Part shown: positions 5,023 to 28,116 of the stretch, piece after piece
Layout: each line of letters opens with the position of its first letter
Numbering within the stretch: the stretch's first letter is position 1
Assembly: GCA_022684035.1 (NCBI GenBank)
Contig: JAJHSB010000058.1
Coordinates: forward strand, 1-33,098
DNA: 33,098 nucleotides
Direction: 5' to 3'
Source of the DNA: Candidatus Acetothermia bacterium
GTDB lineage: Bacteria > Bipolaricaulota > Bipolaricaulia > UBA7950
Position numbers and translations under genes: made by a program
The notes under the pieces: model-generated
The model's database searches: none
Seen by the model: only the letters and a program-made list of their open reading frames with translations
What the model was told of the DNA's origin: nothing

Positions 5023-5045
5023 GGATTAGGGATTAGGGGATTAAG
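5023..5045 (+). repeat. Three tandem heptamers (GGATTAG type)
   Basis: GGATTAG is repeated twice and followed by a slightly altered third unit, in the gap after the exporter genes. It belongs to the 7-nt-word repeats seen at 22553-22702, 23517-23634 and 27832-28022. It is too short here to form a hairpin by itself. Confidence 0.5.
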
Positions 5046-22405: not shown

Positions 22406-22562
22406 ATAGCATTCGGAACTGTGAAGGTTTATGAAGTACCTCCCGGGAGAGGTGGAAGGTGAGGCGATAGATATAGACAAGGACGGGACGCTTATCCTTC
22501 GAAAGGCAAAGAGTGCTCTCAAAAGAGTCATCGCTGGGGATATTTTGGGATCTAAAATCTAA
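22406..22562 (+). pseudogene. birA: Biotin-protein ligase C-terminal fragment
   Basis: Translation of 22440-22562 gives LPGEVEGEAIDIDKDGTLIL and then a segment ending RVIAGDI before a stop. This matches the small SH3-like C-terminal domain of BirA-type biotin ligases (VEGxAxxIDxDGxLxL ... VxxGDI). One base out of frame, 22406-22439 reads IAFGTVKVYEV, which fits the start of that domain. The catalytic domain is absent and a frameshift is present, so this is a relic. Its last codons run into the heptamer repeat element that follows. Confidence 0.65.
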
Positions 22563-22702
22563 AATCGTGTGCAAAATGGCAAGGAAATGAGAAATTCTAA
22601 GCACCAATAACCAAATAATAACTAATGAACAAATCATCACTGATCAAGACGGATGTTTGAAGCTTCGGTCATTGGAAAATTGGGATTTGGTTATTAGAAT
22701 TT
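22553..22702. repeat. Heptamer-based intergenic element A, with long imperfect hairpin
   Basis: Two TCTAAAA units at the left are followed by a run of degenerate 7-nt words such as AAATTCT and AAGCACC. The blocks AAATTCT (22592-22598) and AATAACCAAAT (22606-22616) are exactly reverse-complemented at 22685-22702, giving an 18-bp stem with a 7-nt bulge. The element lies between the biotin-ligase relic and the 3' end of tpiA. Element B at 27832-28022 shares the same first words in the same phase. Confidence 0.7.
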
Positions 22703-22728
22703 CGGATCATCTCCACAAAAGTAAGCGT

Positions 22729-23484
22729 TCACTCTGAAGCAATTACGATTGCGGCAAATGAATGCGGATCGAGTGATGCTCCGCCGACCAATAATCCGTC
22801 GATATCGGGTTGAGCAAGAAGATCTCGTGTATTTGCTGCGGTGACGCTACCGCCATAAAGAATCGGCACCATATCAGCAGAGGCAGCGTTATATTTACCG
22901 GCAATCCATTGTCGGATATATTCGATTGTCCGTTGCGCTGTCGCTGGGGCAGCGGTCTCACCAGTTCCGATCGCCCATACCGGTTCATAAGCAATCAATA
23001 TTGAGGCAAGCTGGGAGGGATCAATTTTGCTTAACCCGCCGGAAAGTTGAGCCTCGAGTCGCTGCTTAGTTGTTCCCGCACGATACTCAGTGATCGTCTC
23101 CCCGATGCAGATAATGGGTGCGAGATTACCATGTATTGCAGCAACTAATTTACGGTTTACAATGGTGTCACTTTCCTGGAAATGGGTACGGCGTTCCGAA
23201 TGTCCTACCAAAACATAATTACCACCACATTCTTTGATCATCGAACTTGCTATCTCGCCGGTGAACGCTCCGTTATCGTGAAAATGAACATCCTGTGCTC
23301 CCAGCTCCACTGTGGTTGGAGCAAGGAAGCGACCGGCTCGTTCTAAGCTGGTAAAAGGTGGGAAGATTATTACCTTACAGCTCGGCTCTTTGGGAACCAG
23401 ATCAAGAAATTTCCGGATGAATCTTTCTGTCTCGGATGGAGTTTTGTGCATCTTCCAGTTTCCCGCGATTATTTTGCGCCGCAT
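22729..23484 (-). CDS. tpiA: Triosephosphate isomerase
   Basis: It interconverts dihydroxyacetone phosphate and glyceraldehyde 3-phosphate in glycolysis and gluconeogenesis. The 251-residue length is normal. The substrate-binding GNWKMHKT has N9 and K11, the catalytic His is in VLVGHSERR, the catalytic Glu is in AYEPVWAIGTG, and the phosphate-binding ILYGGSV and LLVGGASLD loops are present. AGGAG lies 6 nt before the ATG. It stands apart from gap and pgk, which are not in the window, and is divergent from the efp operon. Confidence 0.97.
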   Translation of the reverse strand: MRRKIIAGNWKMHKTPSETERFIRKFLDLVPKEPSCKVIIFPPFTSLERAGRFLAPTTVELGAQDVHFHDNGAFTGEIASSMIKECGGNYVLVGHSERRTHFQESDTIVNRKLVAAIHGNLAPIICIGETITEYRAGTTKQRLEAQLSGGLSKIDPSQLASILIAYEPVWAIGTGETAAPATAQRTIEYIRQWIAGKYNAASADMVPILYGGSVTAANTRDLLAQPDIDGLLVGGASLDPHSFAAIVIASE

Positions 23485-23516
23485 ATCGTTCTCCTATTGA
23501 TGAAAGTGATAATTCT

Positions 23517-23634
23517 GTAACTACGTAGCTATTTAGGTTGAAGACCGAAGGCTGAAGTATCTTCGCATTCCGTGATCACGCATAATTTGTCCCTATTCGT
23601 CTTCCACCTTCAGTCTATCCGCCTAAGTAGTTAC
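23517..23634. repeat. Heptamer-based intergenic element C, with long imperfect hairpin
   Basis: GTAACTAC (23517-23524) and TTAGG (23533-23537) are reverse-complemented at 23627-23634 and 23622-23626. Between them the left arm runs in 7-nt words of the form NNGAAGN, and the right arm repeats this pattern on the other strand. The loop holds the perfect palindrome CGTGATCACG (23571-23580). It lies between the divergent tpiA and efp genes. Confidence 0.6.
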
Positions 23635-23745
23635 CACTATCTTATCTACATCGTCCTCGCTTTTCCAATTTCGGCTTCCGGTGTAATCGTTAATGCAGAA
23701 GAATCTTCTCATTAAGAGACTAATGAAATTTAACTCCTTTTCTTT

Positions 23746-23775
23746 ACGTAGCTTATGTTGTATAATAAGCTACGT
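23746..23775 (+). promoter_or_regulatory. efp promoter -10 box inside a perfect inverted repeat
   Basis: ACGTAGCTTAT (23746-23756) and ATAAGCTACGT (23765-23775) are exact reverse complements with an 8-nt spacer. A consensus TATAAT (23761-23766) overlaps the spacer and right arm. No good -35 box is visible at the proper distance. The layout suggests an operator that blocks or recruits polymerase, or a hairpin at the very 5' end of the transcript. Confidence 0.55.
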
Positions 23776-23792
23776 GAGGATGGTGATTATTG

Positions 23793-24365
23793 ATGGGGCT
23801 CTCGATAAGTGATCTGCGTAGTGGGATGACGATCTTATATAATGGCGAACTGTACGAGATAATCGAATACGCGCACTCCATGCGGGGACGCGGAGGCGCG
23901 ATCGCCAAGACTAAGTTACGACATGTATTAACAGGACGTATACGCGAAGAGACTTTCCGGGGGGCTGAGAATACGGAACATGCTTTCCTTGAGGGTCGTC
24001 CGCTACAATACTTGTACAAAGATGGTGATCAGTATATATTTATGAATACGGAAGACTTTGAGCAGTCTATTGTAAGCGCAGATTTACTGGAAAAGAAAAT
24101 AGACTATATGATTGAAGGAATGGAGGTTACCGGTTATTTCTATCAAGATCTTTTAGTCAAAGTAGAGTTACCCAACTTTGTTGAACTGCAAGTTGAATAT
24201 GCCGAACCAGCAGTCAAAGGAAATACTATCTCCAATGTAGACAAATCAGTGAAATTGGAAAGTGGCGTCACTGTCAATGTCCCGTTATTTGTGCAACAGG
24301 GAGATCGAATCAAGGTTGATACCCGTACAGGAAGATACGTGGAGCGAGTACAAAGGGAGGAATGA
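23793..24365 (+). CDS. efp: Translation elongation factor P
   Basis: EF-P binds the ribosome between the P and E sites and relieves stalling at consecutive prolines. The 190-residue protein has the normal three beta-barrel domains; LPNFVELQVEYAEPAVKGNT is the usual start of domain III. The tip loop of domain I reads HSMRGRGGAIAKTKL where many EF-Ps have KPGKG, so the residue normally lysylated or aminopentanolylated is Arg33. ATG 23793 is used; a TTG sits one codon earlier, and GAGG lies 14 nt upstream. It leads the efp-Asp23-Asp23-amaP operon and overlaps the next gene by 1 nt. Confidence 0.95.
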   Translation: MGLSISDLRSGMTILYNGELYEIIEYAHSMRGRGGAIAKTKLRHVLTGRIREETFRGAENTEHAFLEGRPLQYLYKDGDQYIFMNTEDFEQSIVSADLLEKKIDYMIEGMEVTGYFYQDLLVKVELPNFVELQVEYAEPAVKGNTISNVDKSVKLESGVTVNVPLFVQQGDRIKVDTRTGRYVERVQREE

Positions 24366-24778
24366 TGGGAGAAAAGACGATCGAAATCAATGATGTAGAC
24401 GGCCGGATTACTATATCGAATGATGTTCTCACTGCAATCGCTAAGACTGCAGCAGAACAAGTAGATGGAGTCGTACTCACCCAAAGGCGAGGAGTAGGTG
24501 GGATTATGGGACTCTTCGGCGGTGAAGATCCAAGTCCGACTGTCAGCGTAGAGACGAGTGATAATGATGTGAAGATCAGTATCACAATCATGACTAAGTA
24601 TGGCGATCCAGTACATCAAGTCGCCCAAGGTGTTCAGGAAAATGTAAAGGCTGATATCGAACGGCTGACCGGAGTAGCAGTAAGTAGTATCGATGTTTAT
24701 GTAACGAAAGTCGTTCCTGCGTCCGATAATGTGGCAGTAGAAGCAGCACAGGGAGATAATGATGATACAAAAGGATGA
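24365..24778 (+). CDS. Asp23/Gls24 family envelope stress protein, copy 1
   Basis: A 137-residue protein of the Asp23/Gls24 family. The domain spans about residues 5-115, with ITISNDVLTAIAKTAAEQVDGV at its start and GDPVHQVAQGVQENVKADIE plus LTGVAVSSIDVYV at its end. A Gly-rich insert (GVGGIMGLFGGED) follows the first helix. In staphylococci Asp23 is held at the membrane by AmaP and its loss triggers a cell-wall stress response. ATG 24365 is 4 nt after GGGAGG; ATG 24362 is the alternative. It overlaps both neighbours, so expression is coupled. Confidence 0.92.
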   Translation: MGEKTIEINDVDGRITISNDVLTAIAKTAAEQVDGVVLTQRRGVGGIMGLFGGEDPSPTVSVETSDNDVKISITIMTKYGDPVHQVAQGVQENVKADIERLTGVAVSSIDVYVTKVVPASDNVAVEAAQGDNDDTKG

Positions 24779-25154
24779 TATTATCAGCGAAAAAGGACGA
24801 GTCAGCATTGCCAAAGATGTAGTTGTGTCGATTGCAGCGATTGCAGTCACCGACATAGAAGGAATAGTCCATGCACGCCGTGGTGATAAACCTTTCCGCC
24901 ACGGTGAGGGAATGAAACGACAGATCGACGTTCAGGTAGAAGAGGAGAACGTCAAAATCAATGTGCAGGCAATGGTGATTCAAGGTTTTCCTGTACACAA
25001 GGTGGCCAAAGAGGTGCAGACTCACGTTAAAACTCAAGTAGAGAAGATGACAGGCTTGACAGTGAGCGGAGTTAATGTCGATATTCAACGCCTTGTCCAG
25101 GTTGAAGAGGCTGCTGCAGCACCAGTTGAACGAGAAGTAAGGAAGAGATCATGA
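24762..25154 (+). CDS. Asp23/Gls24 family envelope stress protein, copy 2
   Basis: A second, diverged Asp23-like protein of 130 residues. It has the same pattern as its neighbour: GRVSIAKDVVVSIAAIAVTDIEGI, IQGFPVHKVAKEVQTHVKTQ and MTGLTVSGVNVDIQ. It lacks the Gly-rich insert but has a basic stretch at about residues 40-55 (RRGDKPFRHGEGMKRQ). GGGAG precedes the start by 6 nt; ATG 24759 is also possible. It overlaps copy 1 by 17 nt. The two copies probably arose by tandem duplication and may form mixed assemblies. Confidence 0.92.
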   Translation: MIQKDDIISEKGRVSIAKDVVVSIAAIAVTDIEGIVHARRGDKPFRHGEGMKRQIDVQVEEENVKINVQAMVIQGFPVHKVAKEVQTHVKTQVEKMTGLTVSGVNVDIQRLVQVEEAAAAPVEREVRKRS

Positions 25155-25708
25155 TTATGGTCTTAGGCACTTTGCTATATAGTAGCCTGGCGTTCATCCT
25201 TGCGGGTGTGGGAATAATTCTCATACTATTTGGCATTAATGTACTATTGCTCAGTGCCGCACTGCCGTATCTTGACACAACCGGCGGCATCATCATCCAG
25301 ATTCTAATCGGAGTAGTCCTGCTTGTCACTGCGGTTTATTTCAGTTTCTTAGTCTATCGTAGACATTTAGAGCGCATACGTTTTTCCTATCAGGAAGAAG
25401 CAGGGCGAATTGAGATATCTTCTTGCGCAATCAAAAATCTGATCAAGGAAATGCTTTTCAGTAAGATCGGCCTCGCAGGGTTAAACGCTGTCTCCTTATC
25501 CCCACAAGGAGATGGAATGGCTATTGCGATCGACGCCTCGATCTCCTCGCAAGAGAAGGTCACGGAAATAGGACATAGAATTCAAACGTTGTTGACCGAG
25601 CAATTGAAAGAGCAGACAGGCATCAAAGTTGAGGAAGTCTCGGTCTTTATCCGTACCATTCGGACTGATCCCAAACTCATTACTGCGAAAAAGAGCGACA
25701 GTGAATAA
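25151..25708 (+). CDS. amaP: AmaP-like membrane anchor for Asp23
   Basis: A 185-residue protein with two N-terminal membrane helices (about residues 7-35 and 45-68), a basic stretch (YRRHLERIRF) and a soluble C-terminal part that itself resembles an Asp23 domain (IEISSCAIKNLIKEML, then ITEQ-type helices and VEEVSVFIRTI). This is the layout of AmaP, which anchors Asp23 at the membrane. It overlaps the second Asp23 gene by 4 nt. The small DUF2273 protein that often accompanies these genes was not found. Confidence 0.87.
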   Translation: MIMVLGTLLYSSLAFILAGVGIILILFGINVLLLSAALPYLDTTGGIIIQILIGVVLLVTAVYFSFLVYRRHLERIRFSYQEEAGRIEISSCAIKNLIKEMLFSKIGLAGLNAVSLSPQGDGMAIAIDASISSQEKVTEIGHRIQTLLTEQLKEQTGIKVEEVSVFIRTIRTDPKLITAKKSDSE

Positions 25709-25857
25709 CAGAAGTCGTTGCGCATGTAATCGGCCTTTGCCGCAGCCTTATCTCTGCTTGTGTGGTGCAGAAAGATATTGCTCGTCATCTCTCCTTTCTC
25801 GGAAATCTGCTCAATCGTTGCCTTAAGGATGTGCAAATTCCCGCCAGATCTCTTTGA
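25705..25857 (+). other. Short open frame between amaP and nusB
   Basis: The 155-nt gap between amaP and nusB is open in one frame for 50 codons, giving VVAHVIGLCRSLISACVVQK and later HLSFLGNLLNRCLKDVQIPA before TGA. It has a plausible amphipathic helical character. There is no ATG, GTG or TTG near its beginning (the first codon after the upstream stop is ATA), so it may be a decayed gene, or chance. A 42-codon Cys-rich frame from GTG 25701 overlaps it and is no better supported. Confidence 0.25.
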
Positions 25858-25863
25858 ATAACG

Positions 25864-26328
25864 ATGCGTAGACGAGAAGCACGCAGATTAGTTTTACAGT
25901 CTCTTTATCAACGAGAGTTCCTTGATATCTCTGACAGCGAGTTATTGGATGAGGTCGATTTAGGCGATCAAGAAAGTTACATCAGACTTACTTTAAGCGG
26001 TATCAGCAAACATCTACAGACTATCGATACAATGATCGCGGCCAAAGCAGAGGGATGGAAAGTAGAGCGTCTTGCGCTGATCGATCGTAATATTCTCCGT
26101 TTGGGAATATTTGAAATTATGTATTGTAATGAGATTCCGGCTGAAGTGACGATTGATGAAGCAGTGGAATTGGCGAAAGAGTATGGGAGTGATAACGCGC
26201 CTTCATTTATCAATGGTATTCTCGATCGCCTGTGGAAGGAGAACAGCCCGATTGTGAGAGAAGATTGCACAAAGAAGAACTTCCTGCCGACCCGACTGGA
26301 AAATGATAAGCAGAGAGAGGAACGATGA
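25864..26328 (+). CDS. nusB: Transcription antitermination factor NusB
   Basis: NusB binds boxA RNA with NusE (S10) in antitermination complexes on rRNA operons. The 154-residue protein has the all-helical NusB fold, with RRREARRLVLQSLYQREF at the start, DRNILRLGIFEIMY in the middle and PAEVTIDEAVELAKEYGSD plus FINGILDRL at the end. A charged tail of about 25 residues extends beyond the usual end. No ribosome binding site is visible before the ATG, so it may depend on translation of the genes before it. It ends inside the start of the wecB relic. Confidence 0.95.
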   Translation: MRRREARRLVLQSLYQREFLDISDSELLDEVDLGDQESYIRLTLSGISKHLQTIDTMIAAKAEGWKVERLALIDRNILRLGIFEIMYCNEIPAEVTIDEAVELAKEYGSDNAPSFINGILDRLWKENSPIVREDCTKKNFLPTRLENDKQREER

Positions 26329-26823
26329 AAATCTTATTGATTTTGGGTACGCGACCGGAGGCAATCCGACACGAAAGCTTGGCTGGTGGTATCAGCTCCA
26401 TTTGCCGGAGTCTGCTTGAGACCGTCCGATGAAATAAAGATGTCAGAGTTATCTATTCTGTCCATCCAAATCCCAATGTGCAACGAGAGGTACGAGAACG
26501 ACTGGCAGAGATCAAGCAAATCACATTACTTGATCCACTGAATTACGCATCGTTTGTACACCTGATGGCTGATTCTTACCTTGTTATGACCGACTCGGGC
26601 GGAATTCAGGAGGCAGTTCCTTCGCTGAAGATTCTGGTACTCGTAGTACGGAATCAGAGAGCAGAGAGAAGAGAGAAGGATTAAAGACTGGAGTGGTAAA
26701 GTTAATCGGGACTGATCCAAAGCTGATTATCGCTGCGAATAAACACCTGCTACACAATCCCTGGCATACACCGCAATGGCGCAAGTAGATAATCCGTATG
26801 GAGCCAACAAAGCAGCTGAGTAA
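26325..26823 (+). pseudogene. wecB: Decayed UDP-N-acetylglucosamine 2-epimerase gene
   Basis: The start is intact: AGAGAGG before ATG 26325 and MKILLILGTRPEAI, the usual WecB N-terminus. The frame then jumps straight to HESLAGGISSICRSLLETV, corresponding to the HRRES region near residue 200, so about 190 codons are deleted. An in-frame TGA follows at 26430. The same frame then reads VIYSVHPNPNV and TDSGGIQEAVPSL. A purine-rich expansion of AGAGAGA words (about 26655-26675) shifts the frame. GVVKLIGTDPKLI and finally DNPYGANKAAE appear in other frames. The enzyme would make UDP-ManNAc for wall or surface polymers; this copy cannot. Confidence 0.88.
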
Positions 26824-26852
26824 ATAATCAAGATATTACAAACAAAAGTGCA

Positions 26853-27725
26853 TTGCCGATAGTGAATCAAGCACGCAATAGAGGCAGAAGTTATGCCGAC
26901 CTCCATCTACACACCCGTGCATCCGATGGAACGCTTTCCGTCACTGACATGGTCGCGCGGGCAAGAGAACATAACCTCACGACCATTGCCATAACCGATC
27001 ATGATACGATCGCTCCTCAACTCCATACACGGCTAACATCGATCGACAGAGTAGAGGTAATTACCGGCATAGAGATCAAAGCGGATATACACGGATACCA
27101 TGGGGAGATTCTCGGTTACTTTATTGATCCACATAATGAGCAACTACGACGTATTATTCACTCTTTAACTGTAGCGAGAATTAGCCGCATGGAAGAGATG
27201 GTTATGCTATGTCGCCGTCGGGTGGGGAAGAGAATCTCGTTTGACGAAGTGCGATCATGCGCGGCTGGTACGATCGGCAGGCCTCATTTAGCTCATATCC
27301 TCAAAGAGAAAGGGATCGTCGCTTCGACTACAGAGGCATTTGAACGTCTTATCGGCCGCGGAAAACCTTGTTATGTTCCACTGGCGCGACTTTCTTTTGC
27401 CGATGTGGTTGCGGCGATACAGGTTGCCGATGGACTAACCTCGTTGGCGCATCCTTGTTTGATACAAATCAATGATTGGGAGAATCTACTTCCTATTTTG
27501 AAAGAGGAGGGGCTCGACGGAGTAGAAGTTTTTTACCCCTATTTAAACTCAAGCCAACAGCTCGGCACCGCTCCCGAAGATCTCGTGAGGTTAGCAAAGA
27601 GATATGGCTTTCTCCTTACCGGCGGATCAGATGATCACGGTCCTGGTTCTGTGCGCGAGAGTATAGGAGTGGTCAAGCTTCCAATGAAAGACGTCGATGC
27701 GCTGCGCAGAGCAGCACGCCTTTAA
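26853..27725 (+). CDS. PHP-domain phosphoesterase (TrpH/YciV-like)
   Basis: A 290-residue metal-dependent phosphatase of the PHP superfamily. YADLHLHTRASDGTLSV holds the first metal ligands, ITDHDTI the next, then GIEIKADIHG, TIGRPHLAHIL, SLAHPCL and the C-terminal GGSDDHGPG. E. coli YciV (RNase AM/TrpH), which has this layout, trims RNA 5' ends and removes 3'-phosphate from 3',5'-bisphosphonucleotides; the same is likely here. The start is uncertain: TTG 26853 and GTG 26862 are in frame, neither with a good ribosome site. It follows the wecB relic by about 30 nt. Confidence 0.9.
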   Translation: MPIVNQARNRGRSYADLHLHTRASDGTLSVTDMVARAREHNLTTIAITDHDTIAPQLHTRLTSIDRVEVITGIEIKADIHGYHGEILGYFIDPHNEQLRRIIHSLTVARISRMEEMVMLCRRRVGKRISFDEVRSCAAGTIGRPHLAHILKEKGIVASTTEAFERLIGRGKPCYVPLARLSFADVVAAIQVADGLTSLAHPCLIQINDWENLLPILKEEGLDGVEVFYPYLNSSQQLGTAPEDLVRLAKRYGFLLTGGSDDHGPGSVRESIGVVKLPMKDVDALRRAARL

Positions 27726-28116
27726 GTTTTTTGGCACACATACTGCCTGCATGCCGAGAGAACCACAGTGGTCACTTAAGAGGAGAAAGGAGTCAAGATC
27801 GAGGAAAAAGATTAAGAATTAGTCTCTAAAATCTAAAGTTTTACCTACTTGTTGGCAAAGAGGCGCGAAATGGAAAAGAGTTGCAATTACAAATTCCAAG
27901 CACTAACCACCAGAAAGAGTGACTCGTGACTCGTGACTGGTGACTGGAGGGGAAAATCCTACGAGCCACGAGATACCAGCCACGAGCCACCAGCCGAAGG
28001 CGGGGATTGGTTAGTAGAATTTAGTTATCGTTTAAAAATTGAGATTCATTGGGATTGCCGGCTTCTCCTGGTTAGGGAGTAGGGTTGAATTTTAAATCAA
28101 CATCGGACGCTTAAGC
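27726..28116. other. Gap between the convergent PHP and MFS genes
   Basis: There is no gene in these 390 nt. The first ~100 nt are unremarkable. Heptamer element B fills 27832-28022. The last ~95 nt are GT-rich on the plus strand and lead to the MFS stop codon. Confidence 0.6.
27832..28022. repeat. Heptamer-based intergenic element B, with nested hairpin
   Basis: After a TCTAAAA-type start the sequence runs in 7-nt phase: AAATTCC, AAGCACT (27891-27904), then two intermediate words and four tandem GTGACTS units (27919-27946). ACTAACCA (27902-27909) and AAATTC (27891-27896) are reverse-complemented at 28008-28015 and 28017-28022. The GTGACTS run faces a complementary GTGGCTS-type run at 27962-27994. 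The mismatches are G-U pairs in minus-strand RNA, so folding would be best in the MFS transcript. It lies between convergent genes. Confidence 0.72.

Follow-up and report, generated by a model that had tools for sequence, protein, structure and literature searches.

In Leptospira and Coxiella, intervening sequences (IVSs) of 23S rRNA carry a gene of the S23/intervening-sequence protein (IVP) family, PF05635, between the arms of a long terminal inverted repeat, and in Coxiella two to three tandem GACAGAT heptamers and a degenerate unit stand just before the S23 open reading frame (PMC4990558). The authors of that study cite earlier proposals of IVS mobility (PMC4990558). Here we analyzed a 33,098-nucleotide stretch from a Candidatus Acetothermia bacterium (contig JAJHSB010000058.1, positions 1 to 33,098 of the forward strand; hereafter the window), in which three intergenic elements, A, B and C, are composed of degenerate 7-nt words. 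These heptamer hairpins are probably non-autonomous remnants, comparable to miniature inverted-repeat transposable elements (MITEs), of a widespread mobile element bearing the IVP gene (the IVP unit).

Intergenic tandem degenerate heptamers are known as short tandemly repeated repetitive sequences (STRRs) and under other names from Nostoc, Calothrix, Xanthomonas (GGGAATC), Beggiatoa (TAACTGA; arrays in Beggiatoaceae, PMC4679880) and Geobacter (GGGACCG and MTYCTGA), where they were described without a link to PF05635. Xanthomonas genomes contain about 70 inverted GGGAATC pairs each, for which no general association with mobile elements was reported (PMC4692102), and heptamers also make up the P6b stem of the tRNA-Leu intron in Nostoc (PMC4476775); heptamer hairpins thus have precedents, contrary to what had been supposed in an earlier interpretation of the window (the sequence-only reading). 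The two Geobacter families are annotated as putative regulator sites (PMC2700814). IVP genes have been counted as cas-associated (PMC3936711), and the IVP is homologous in its four-helix-bundle fold to Avd, a protein of diversity-generating retroelements (DGRs; PMC10053308). No paper linking heptamer arrays to PF05635 in general was found in the open-licence literature.

Results

The genome contains a single intact PF05635/TIGR02436 gene of the cassette type (locus L051, E 5e-34). This gene and the PF05635 matches at L052/L053 were flanked by inverted 7-nt arrays, and a PF05635 fragment at L054 adjoined a GGGGTCAA array of period 8. The family was present in 22 of 40 related genomes, where the flanks of the gene had a period of 7, 8 or 9, usually equal on both sides, and DNA 700-900 bp from the loci was mostly without such periodicity.

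The breadth of this association was determined with 80 further PF05635 loci from GTDB genomes, which were the best matches to one subfamily and were chosen by protein pattern alone, the flanks being unused; 76 of them were testable. They came from Acidobacteria, Planctomycetes, Bacteroidetes, Firmicutes, several proteobacterial classes, spirochaetes, Chloroflexi, Nitrospirae, Gemmatimonadetes, Fibrobacteres, Kiritimatiellae, Akkermansia, SAR324 and the Candidate Phyla Radiation, and the 27 S15 controls from relatives of this genome only. An array of period 7 to 9 (p<0.01) was found on at least one side in 67 of the 76 loci and none of the 27 controls, and on both sides in 46 loci and, again, no control. 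The period was equal on both sides in 63 loci compared to four controls, and inverted complementarity reached a score of at least 14 in 67 loci compared to one control. Arms paired with their own partner attained this score in 92 of 107 cases, and arms paired with that of another locus in 20 of 214. Inverted 7-9-nt arrays on both sides were found at L051, L052 and 46 to 67 of the 76 loci; elements B and C of the window have such arms without the gene.

The array words followed the protein sequence. Similarity of flank words rose with IVP identity (Mantel r 0.16, 0/1000 permutations as high), and words were shared by eight of nine pairs above 70% protein identity, by 14% of pairs at 60-70% and by about 0.5% below 50%. 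L051 and a plasmid copy of Trichormus variabilis, from different phyla, have 73% protein identity and common CAGAATTCAGGAGTC words. This tracking fits a unit that is inherited and transferred whole and whose arrays may be recognized by the protein. In a comparison of a few published words (GGGGAYT and others) with IVP flanks, GGGACCG, the word of 49 Geobacter metallireducens elements (PMC2700814), fitted the Xanthomonas arrays L163/L174, and MTYCTGA fitted the word class of L051 and Trichormus. The Xanthomonas/Lysobacteraceae units at L163, L174 and L133, with GGGACCG or GAGGCCA words, lie directly before an apparent carB start (MPKRTDLKTILIIGAGP).

Empty sites were sought with the joined flanks of three cyanobacterial plasmid copies, and presence and absence of the unit at identical sites was found. 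At site 1, on conjugative plasmids with flanks 96-98% identical, T. variabilis ATCC 29413 and Scytonema NIES-4073 contained the unit, N. linckia and Microchaete had the empty sequence GTAATTAACAAATAAAT and N. carneum was empty with one base different, all without an array; Nostoc C052 had a decayed allele that retains the array on the left and the beginning of the gene. The unit was bordered on both sides by GTAAT[T/A]AA (GTAATTA(A)), possibly a target duplication of 7-8 bp. At site 2, N. edaphicum and C052 were filled and two C057 plasmids empty, and ATCC 53789 showed inverted GGGAAC-type arrays with no IVP gene. Site 3 lies in type I-D operons, in the gap that separates cas6 from cas4 (loci L225/L241, L242, L234 and L243): it was filled in Anabaena 90, empty in Nostoc UHCC 0302, occupied by a different IVP with AAAAGCT words in Pseudanabaena galeata and by an AATTACG array only in Pseudanabaena ABRG5-3. 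From these filled, empty and decayed alleles it follows that the arrays and the gene arrive as one insert and that the gene can be lost; the mobility of the IVP unit is thus well supported, and the elements of the window would have had the same history. The published cas-association of PF05635 may reflect insertion and not function, since different IVP units fill one gap and none is present in Nostoc UHCC 0302. In the corresponding gap of Dolichospermum UHCC 0315A (L233) another inverted repeat (GTTGGGTTGACGCAAGGAAACCCAAC...) stands where Anabaena 90 has the IVP unit.

Periodicity in the genome was analyzed in 20 stretches and the window, together 430 kb of the 1.56 Mb draft genome and 17% intergenic, at one threshold. 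Lag 7 gave 35 regions, 32 of them intergenic, compared to 0 to 6 regions for each of lags 5, 6 and 8-12 and none at lag 7 in block-shuffled sequence; tandem degenerate heptamers in non-coding DNA, as in STRRs, are therefore present here. Lag-7 identity was 0.47 in both A and B, other lags giving about 0.2-0.4, and was weak (0.34) in C.

Element B (positions 27819-28076, + strand) is a full-length member of a dispersed family: in alignment with L024, L016 and L032 both ends were common, and L024 also had the same cassette. Its outer ends are TTAGTCTCTAAAATCTAAAG ... GGGATTGCCGGCTTCTCCTGGTTAGG, its left arm reads AAATTCC AAGCACT, its right arm GATTGGTTAGTAGAATTTAG...AAAATTGAGATT, and the inner cassette consists of GTGACTC/GTGACTG words and the inverse CCACGAG/CCACCAG. 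Element A (22551-22706, + strand), identified by periodicity, copy comparison, fold and alignment, corresponds to the 5' half and stem of the family, with the 3' end truncated or diverged. The core word AAATTCYAAGCACY occurs at 48 exact sites in the genome, and about 50 dispersed copies with common ends and inverted repeats but no full gene have the make-up of a MITE. The common 5' and 3' ends are non-heptameric.

These data confirm that A and B start with common heptads in the same phase, which proved part of a much larger family than the sequence-only reading had noted, and the searches it proposed, for the A/B consensus and for genome-wide 7-nt autocorrelation, excluded the outcome of no further copies and no excess of periodicity (48 exact core-word sites; 35 regions compared to 0 in shuffles). 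A spreading repeat family with hairpin structure is likewise supported. Element B is a real element, with limits wider than the 27832-28022 given before, and of the four gaps then regarded as heptameric A, B and C were retained.

The outer ends of the A/B copies are constant and the middles differ. The middle held either a core of the TGACCAA type, a cassette of GTGACTC/CCACGAG words (B, L024, L027, L045) or a cassette with CAGGAGCCAGAAGCCAGAATTCAGGAGTCAGA ATG..., reading MKREPAKHFQDWIVWQKAHQFVLS, followed by the inverted array TTCTGGCTTCTGACTTCTGACTCCTGA. The MKREPAKHFQDWIVWQKAHQFVLS peptide forms the N-terminal end of a PF05635 protein ("23S rRNA IVP", four-helix-bundle). In the 430 kb, five heptamer elements carried the first 24-30 codons of an L051-type gene (tblastn E 1e-9 to 1e-12), four within A/B-family copies and one alone (L250), and the cassette was found in both orientations inside A/B copies (L036 and L038). 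The 31-residue remnant by itself had no HMM (hidden Markov model) support, and its identification rests on tblastn. These truncated starts are gene-deleted offspring of IVP units. No IVP trace was found within A, B or C themselves, and what would link A and B to the IVP is that they belong to the family, together with the IVP cassettes of their sister copies.

The core word was not found in the same-genus genome and was effectively absent from 39 relatives (a single one-mismatch match in G029); the A/B family was therefore probably amplified recently in this lineage. Core-word copies often lie at contig ends, which indicates that the family broke the assembly; the true number of copies is probably higher than counted. 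Many contigs begin or end in this way, the first ~90 bases of contigs C3, C19, C32, C33, C45, C56 and C59 of this genome (G000) lying within an A/B copy. Triosephosphate isomerase, a neighbour gene, was sought for empty A/B sites in the same-genus genome (G001) and was not found there.

Element C (23517-23634) forms a hairpin of 118 bp; its 8-nt ends, GTAACTAC/GTAGTTAC, are perfect, its GACCGAAGGCTGAAG arrays are degenerate, and no IVP gene is left. The hairpin is strong (z -5.7, 0/200 shuffles equal it) and its ends resemble those of the IVP element in L051 (GTAACTAC/GTGGTTAC). Judged by ends and layout only, element C would belong to the IVP-type elements. Element A folds moderately (z -2.1 compared to shuffles).

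The IVP unit of L051 (1125-2520; G000, contig C21) lies between pieces of an ISL3 transposase, the N-terminal Zn_ribbon_ISL3 and the C-terminal DDE_Tnp_ISL3. A clean empty site for L051 in the ISL3 gene was considered and rejected, as no intact copy was found in the genome or its relatives and the transposase lacks its middle part. Either the insertion came with a deletion, or the ISL3 gene decayed around it.

Three further features were also noted. A heptamer hairpin of AAATTCTAAATCC words at 5694-5964 of L248 has a loop that reads LYDLERRTEEFAREII, like the N-terminus seen in another IVP subfamily (L069, L071). Nested hairpins, in which CAGGAGTCAGGAGCC-type arrays stand inside the loop formed by another dispersed palindrome (GTCATTGCGAG...CTCGCAATGAC), were seen at L258 18335-18433, L247 1885-2118, L249 12493-12724 and L256 554-738. 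After element A, at 22703-22718 of the window, the sequence CGGATCATCTCC[A/C]AAAAAG, possibly another short dispersed repeat, also occurs before the IVP fragment in L054 (~1410-1430).

The remaining gap, with three GGATTAG-like units at 5023-5045 (+ strand), is too short for its membership to be supported: its periodicity is mixed 7/8, and neither a hairpin nor a family link was found.

Discussion

On the interpretation preferred here, an IVP element would be a PF05635 gene between two mirrored arrays of 7-nt words that inserts at new, mostly intergenic sites, its words evolving along with the IVP protein. Internal deletion would remove the gene and leave a bare hairpin, and bare hairpins could nest in each other and amplify, as the A/B family may have done here. 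The IVP protein presumably recognizes the arrays and drives mobility, and the intermediate may be a folded single strand of DNA or RNA. A solved homologue, Xcc0516 (2gsc), forms a ring of five four-helix bundles, according to the account of Lin et al. 2006 cited in PMC10053308. If IVP proteins formed a ring or chain in which each contact reads one word, a fixed period together with free wording would be explained.

Several observations weigh against this interpretation. Neither 40 relatives nor 100 genomes of the phylum yielded an intact IVP gene with A/B words, AAATTCYAAGCACYAAA occurs in this genome only among the 100, and the possible IVP N-terminus LYDLERRTEEFAREII in L248, whose words are related to those of A/B, has no HMM support. 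The ISL3 gene around L051 lacks its middle and is not a clean insertion, flanks resembling a target duplication were seen at one plasmid site only, and a few IVP loci are without clear arrays (e.g. L166, L182, L193). Finally, element B folds no better than dinucleotide shuffles (z -0.1), so that two of the four gaps, those of C and A, hold hairpins beyond chance. Fold energy is probably uninformative for B, because shuffling by dinucleotides preserves the word composition of the arms; judged by the other copies and not by energy, the arms of B appear to be real inverted arrays.

The outer A/B core (AAATTCC AAGCACC words) would itself descend from an IVP unit, an origin that is favoured over an unrelated MITE invaded by IVP units because the arms of A/B likewise consist of inverted heptamer arrays of the IVP-element type. 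The competing view, that A and B belong to a separate MITE moved by an unrelated transposase and that the IVP cassettes are hitchhikers, concerns A and B only and would leave the general finding on IVP genes and arrays unaffected. It agrees with the common non-heptameric ends and with the lack of an intact IVP gene with A/B words, but besides the nature of the arms, the inner cassettes have been swapped at the hairpin apex, and no transposase with matching ends turned up, although no search was aimed at one. We consider this view unlikely.

Somewhat less probable still is that the arrays are pre-existing host repeats, STRR-like and grown by slippage, or hairpins, into which IVP genes insert as into a target. 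The nesting of IVP cassettes inside A/B hairpins and of CAGGAGTC arrays inside CATTGCGAG...CTCGCAATG palindromes would be expected from such a preference, and 23S IVSs are known within rRNA helices (PMC4990558). However, the empty plasmid alleles are free of arrays, arrays and gene come and go jointly, and the words follow the IVP sequence, across phyla too.

Repeats of the STRR type that were born by slippage and kept or tolerated between genes, with no mobile-element origin, are very improbable. Array length does vary by whole units, among Coxiella strains (PMC4990558) and between the site 1 alleles of T. variabilis and Scytonema, whose left arrays differ by 14 nt, and slippage thus alters arrays within a unit; but slippage yields direct repeats and not paired inverted arms around one gene family, and the dispersed A/B copies have long common non-repetitive ends. 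The spread by slippage and inversion proposed in the sequence-only reading is therefore not the best account of arrays that flank a PF05635 gene, come and go as a unit and decay by gene loss.

Host-functional elements under selection, that is, regulator sites, as annotated for Geobacter (PMC2700814), or the bidirectional terminators suggested earlier, are the least credible alternative: A and B do sit between convergent genes, and array-bearing gaps are convergent in 7 of 26 cases compared to 21 of 163 gaps overall, which gives terminators weak support, but 16 of the 26 are tandem, B is no stabler than shuffles, and the same-genus genome and other relatives have no copies.

Several known systems resemble the proposed IVP units. 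These units share with 23S rRNA IVSs the protein family, the long terminal inverted repeat and the position of the gene between the arms; however, IVSs are located in rRNA and removed by RNase III, whereas IVP units lie between protein genes and in plasmids, have heptamer arrays generally and leave gene-less offspring. Identity with 23S rRNA IVSs was considered and rejected, the location in an rRNA gene not being found: Rfam gave no match in the window or in 20 diverse IVP loci (0/20). With MITEs and the REPIN/RAYT system (short hairpins and their associated transposase) they have in common small dispersed hairpins that outnumber a rarer related copy with one gene, but no transposase or Y1 domain was found in the IVP unit, and its arms are arrays of short degenerate words that change between elements. 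Eight of 22 IVPs matched Pfam bAvd and 11 of 22 weakly matched NCBIfam Avd, whereas TIGR02436 scored far better on IVPs. DGR homing needs a hairpin or cruciform at the DNA target (PMC3240598), and IVP units are hairpin-like; on the other hand, no template/variable repeat (TR/VR) pair or reverse transcriptase turned up in IVP units, although no dedicated reverse transcriptase search was made.

A broader proposal, which we put forward tentatively and judge somewhat less likely to be right than wrong, is that PF05635 represents a large unrecognised class of mobile elements that move without a known transposase, integrase or reverse transcriptase of their own. An Avd-like ring would bind a folded single strand at its heptamer arrays, each subunit or contact taking one word, and would direct copying into new sites, including hairpin loops; 23S rRNA IVSs, many STRR-type repeats and the tRNA-Leu intron P6b stems would then be members or remains of the class.

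Conclusions

PF05635, a very common protein family without an assigned function, has in turn been taken for a ribosomal protein, for a candidate cas-linked gene (PMC3936711, PMC10910872) and for a partner of DGRs (PMC10053308). Scattered reports of heptamer repeats go back decades and give no cause for them. How an association of the IVP gene can arise is directly visible at the cas6-cas4 site, which is occupied in Anabaena and Pseudanabaena and empty in Nostoc. If the gene and the repeats belong to a single mobile element, two old problems would become one and could be tested, through recognition of the words by the protein, the movement of a unit without transposase, and the number of hitchhikers among 'regulatory' heptamers and 'associated' IVP genes. 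Such an element would then explain both the PF05635 gene and many of the unexplained heptamer repeats of bacteria.

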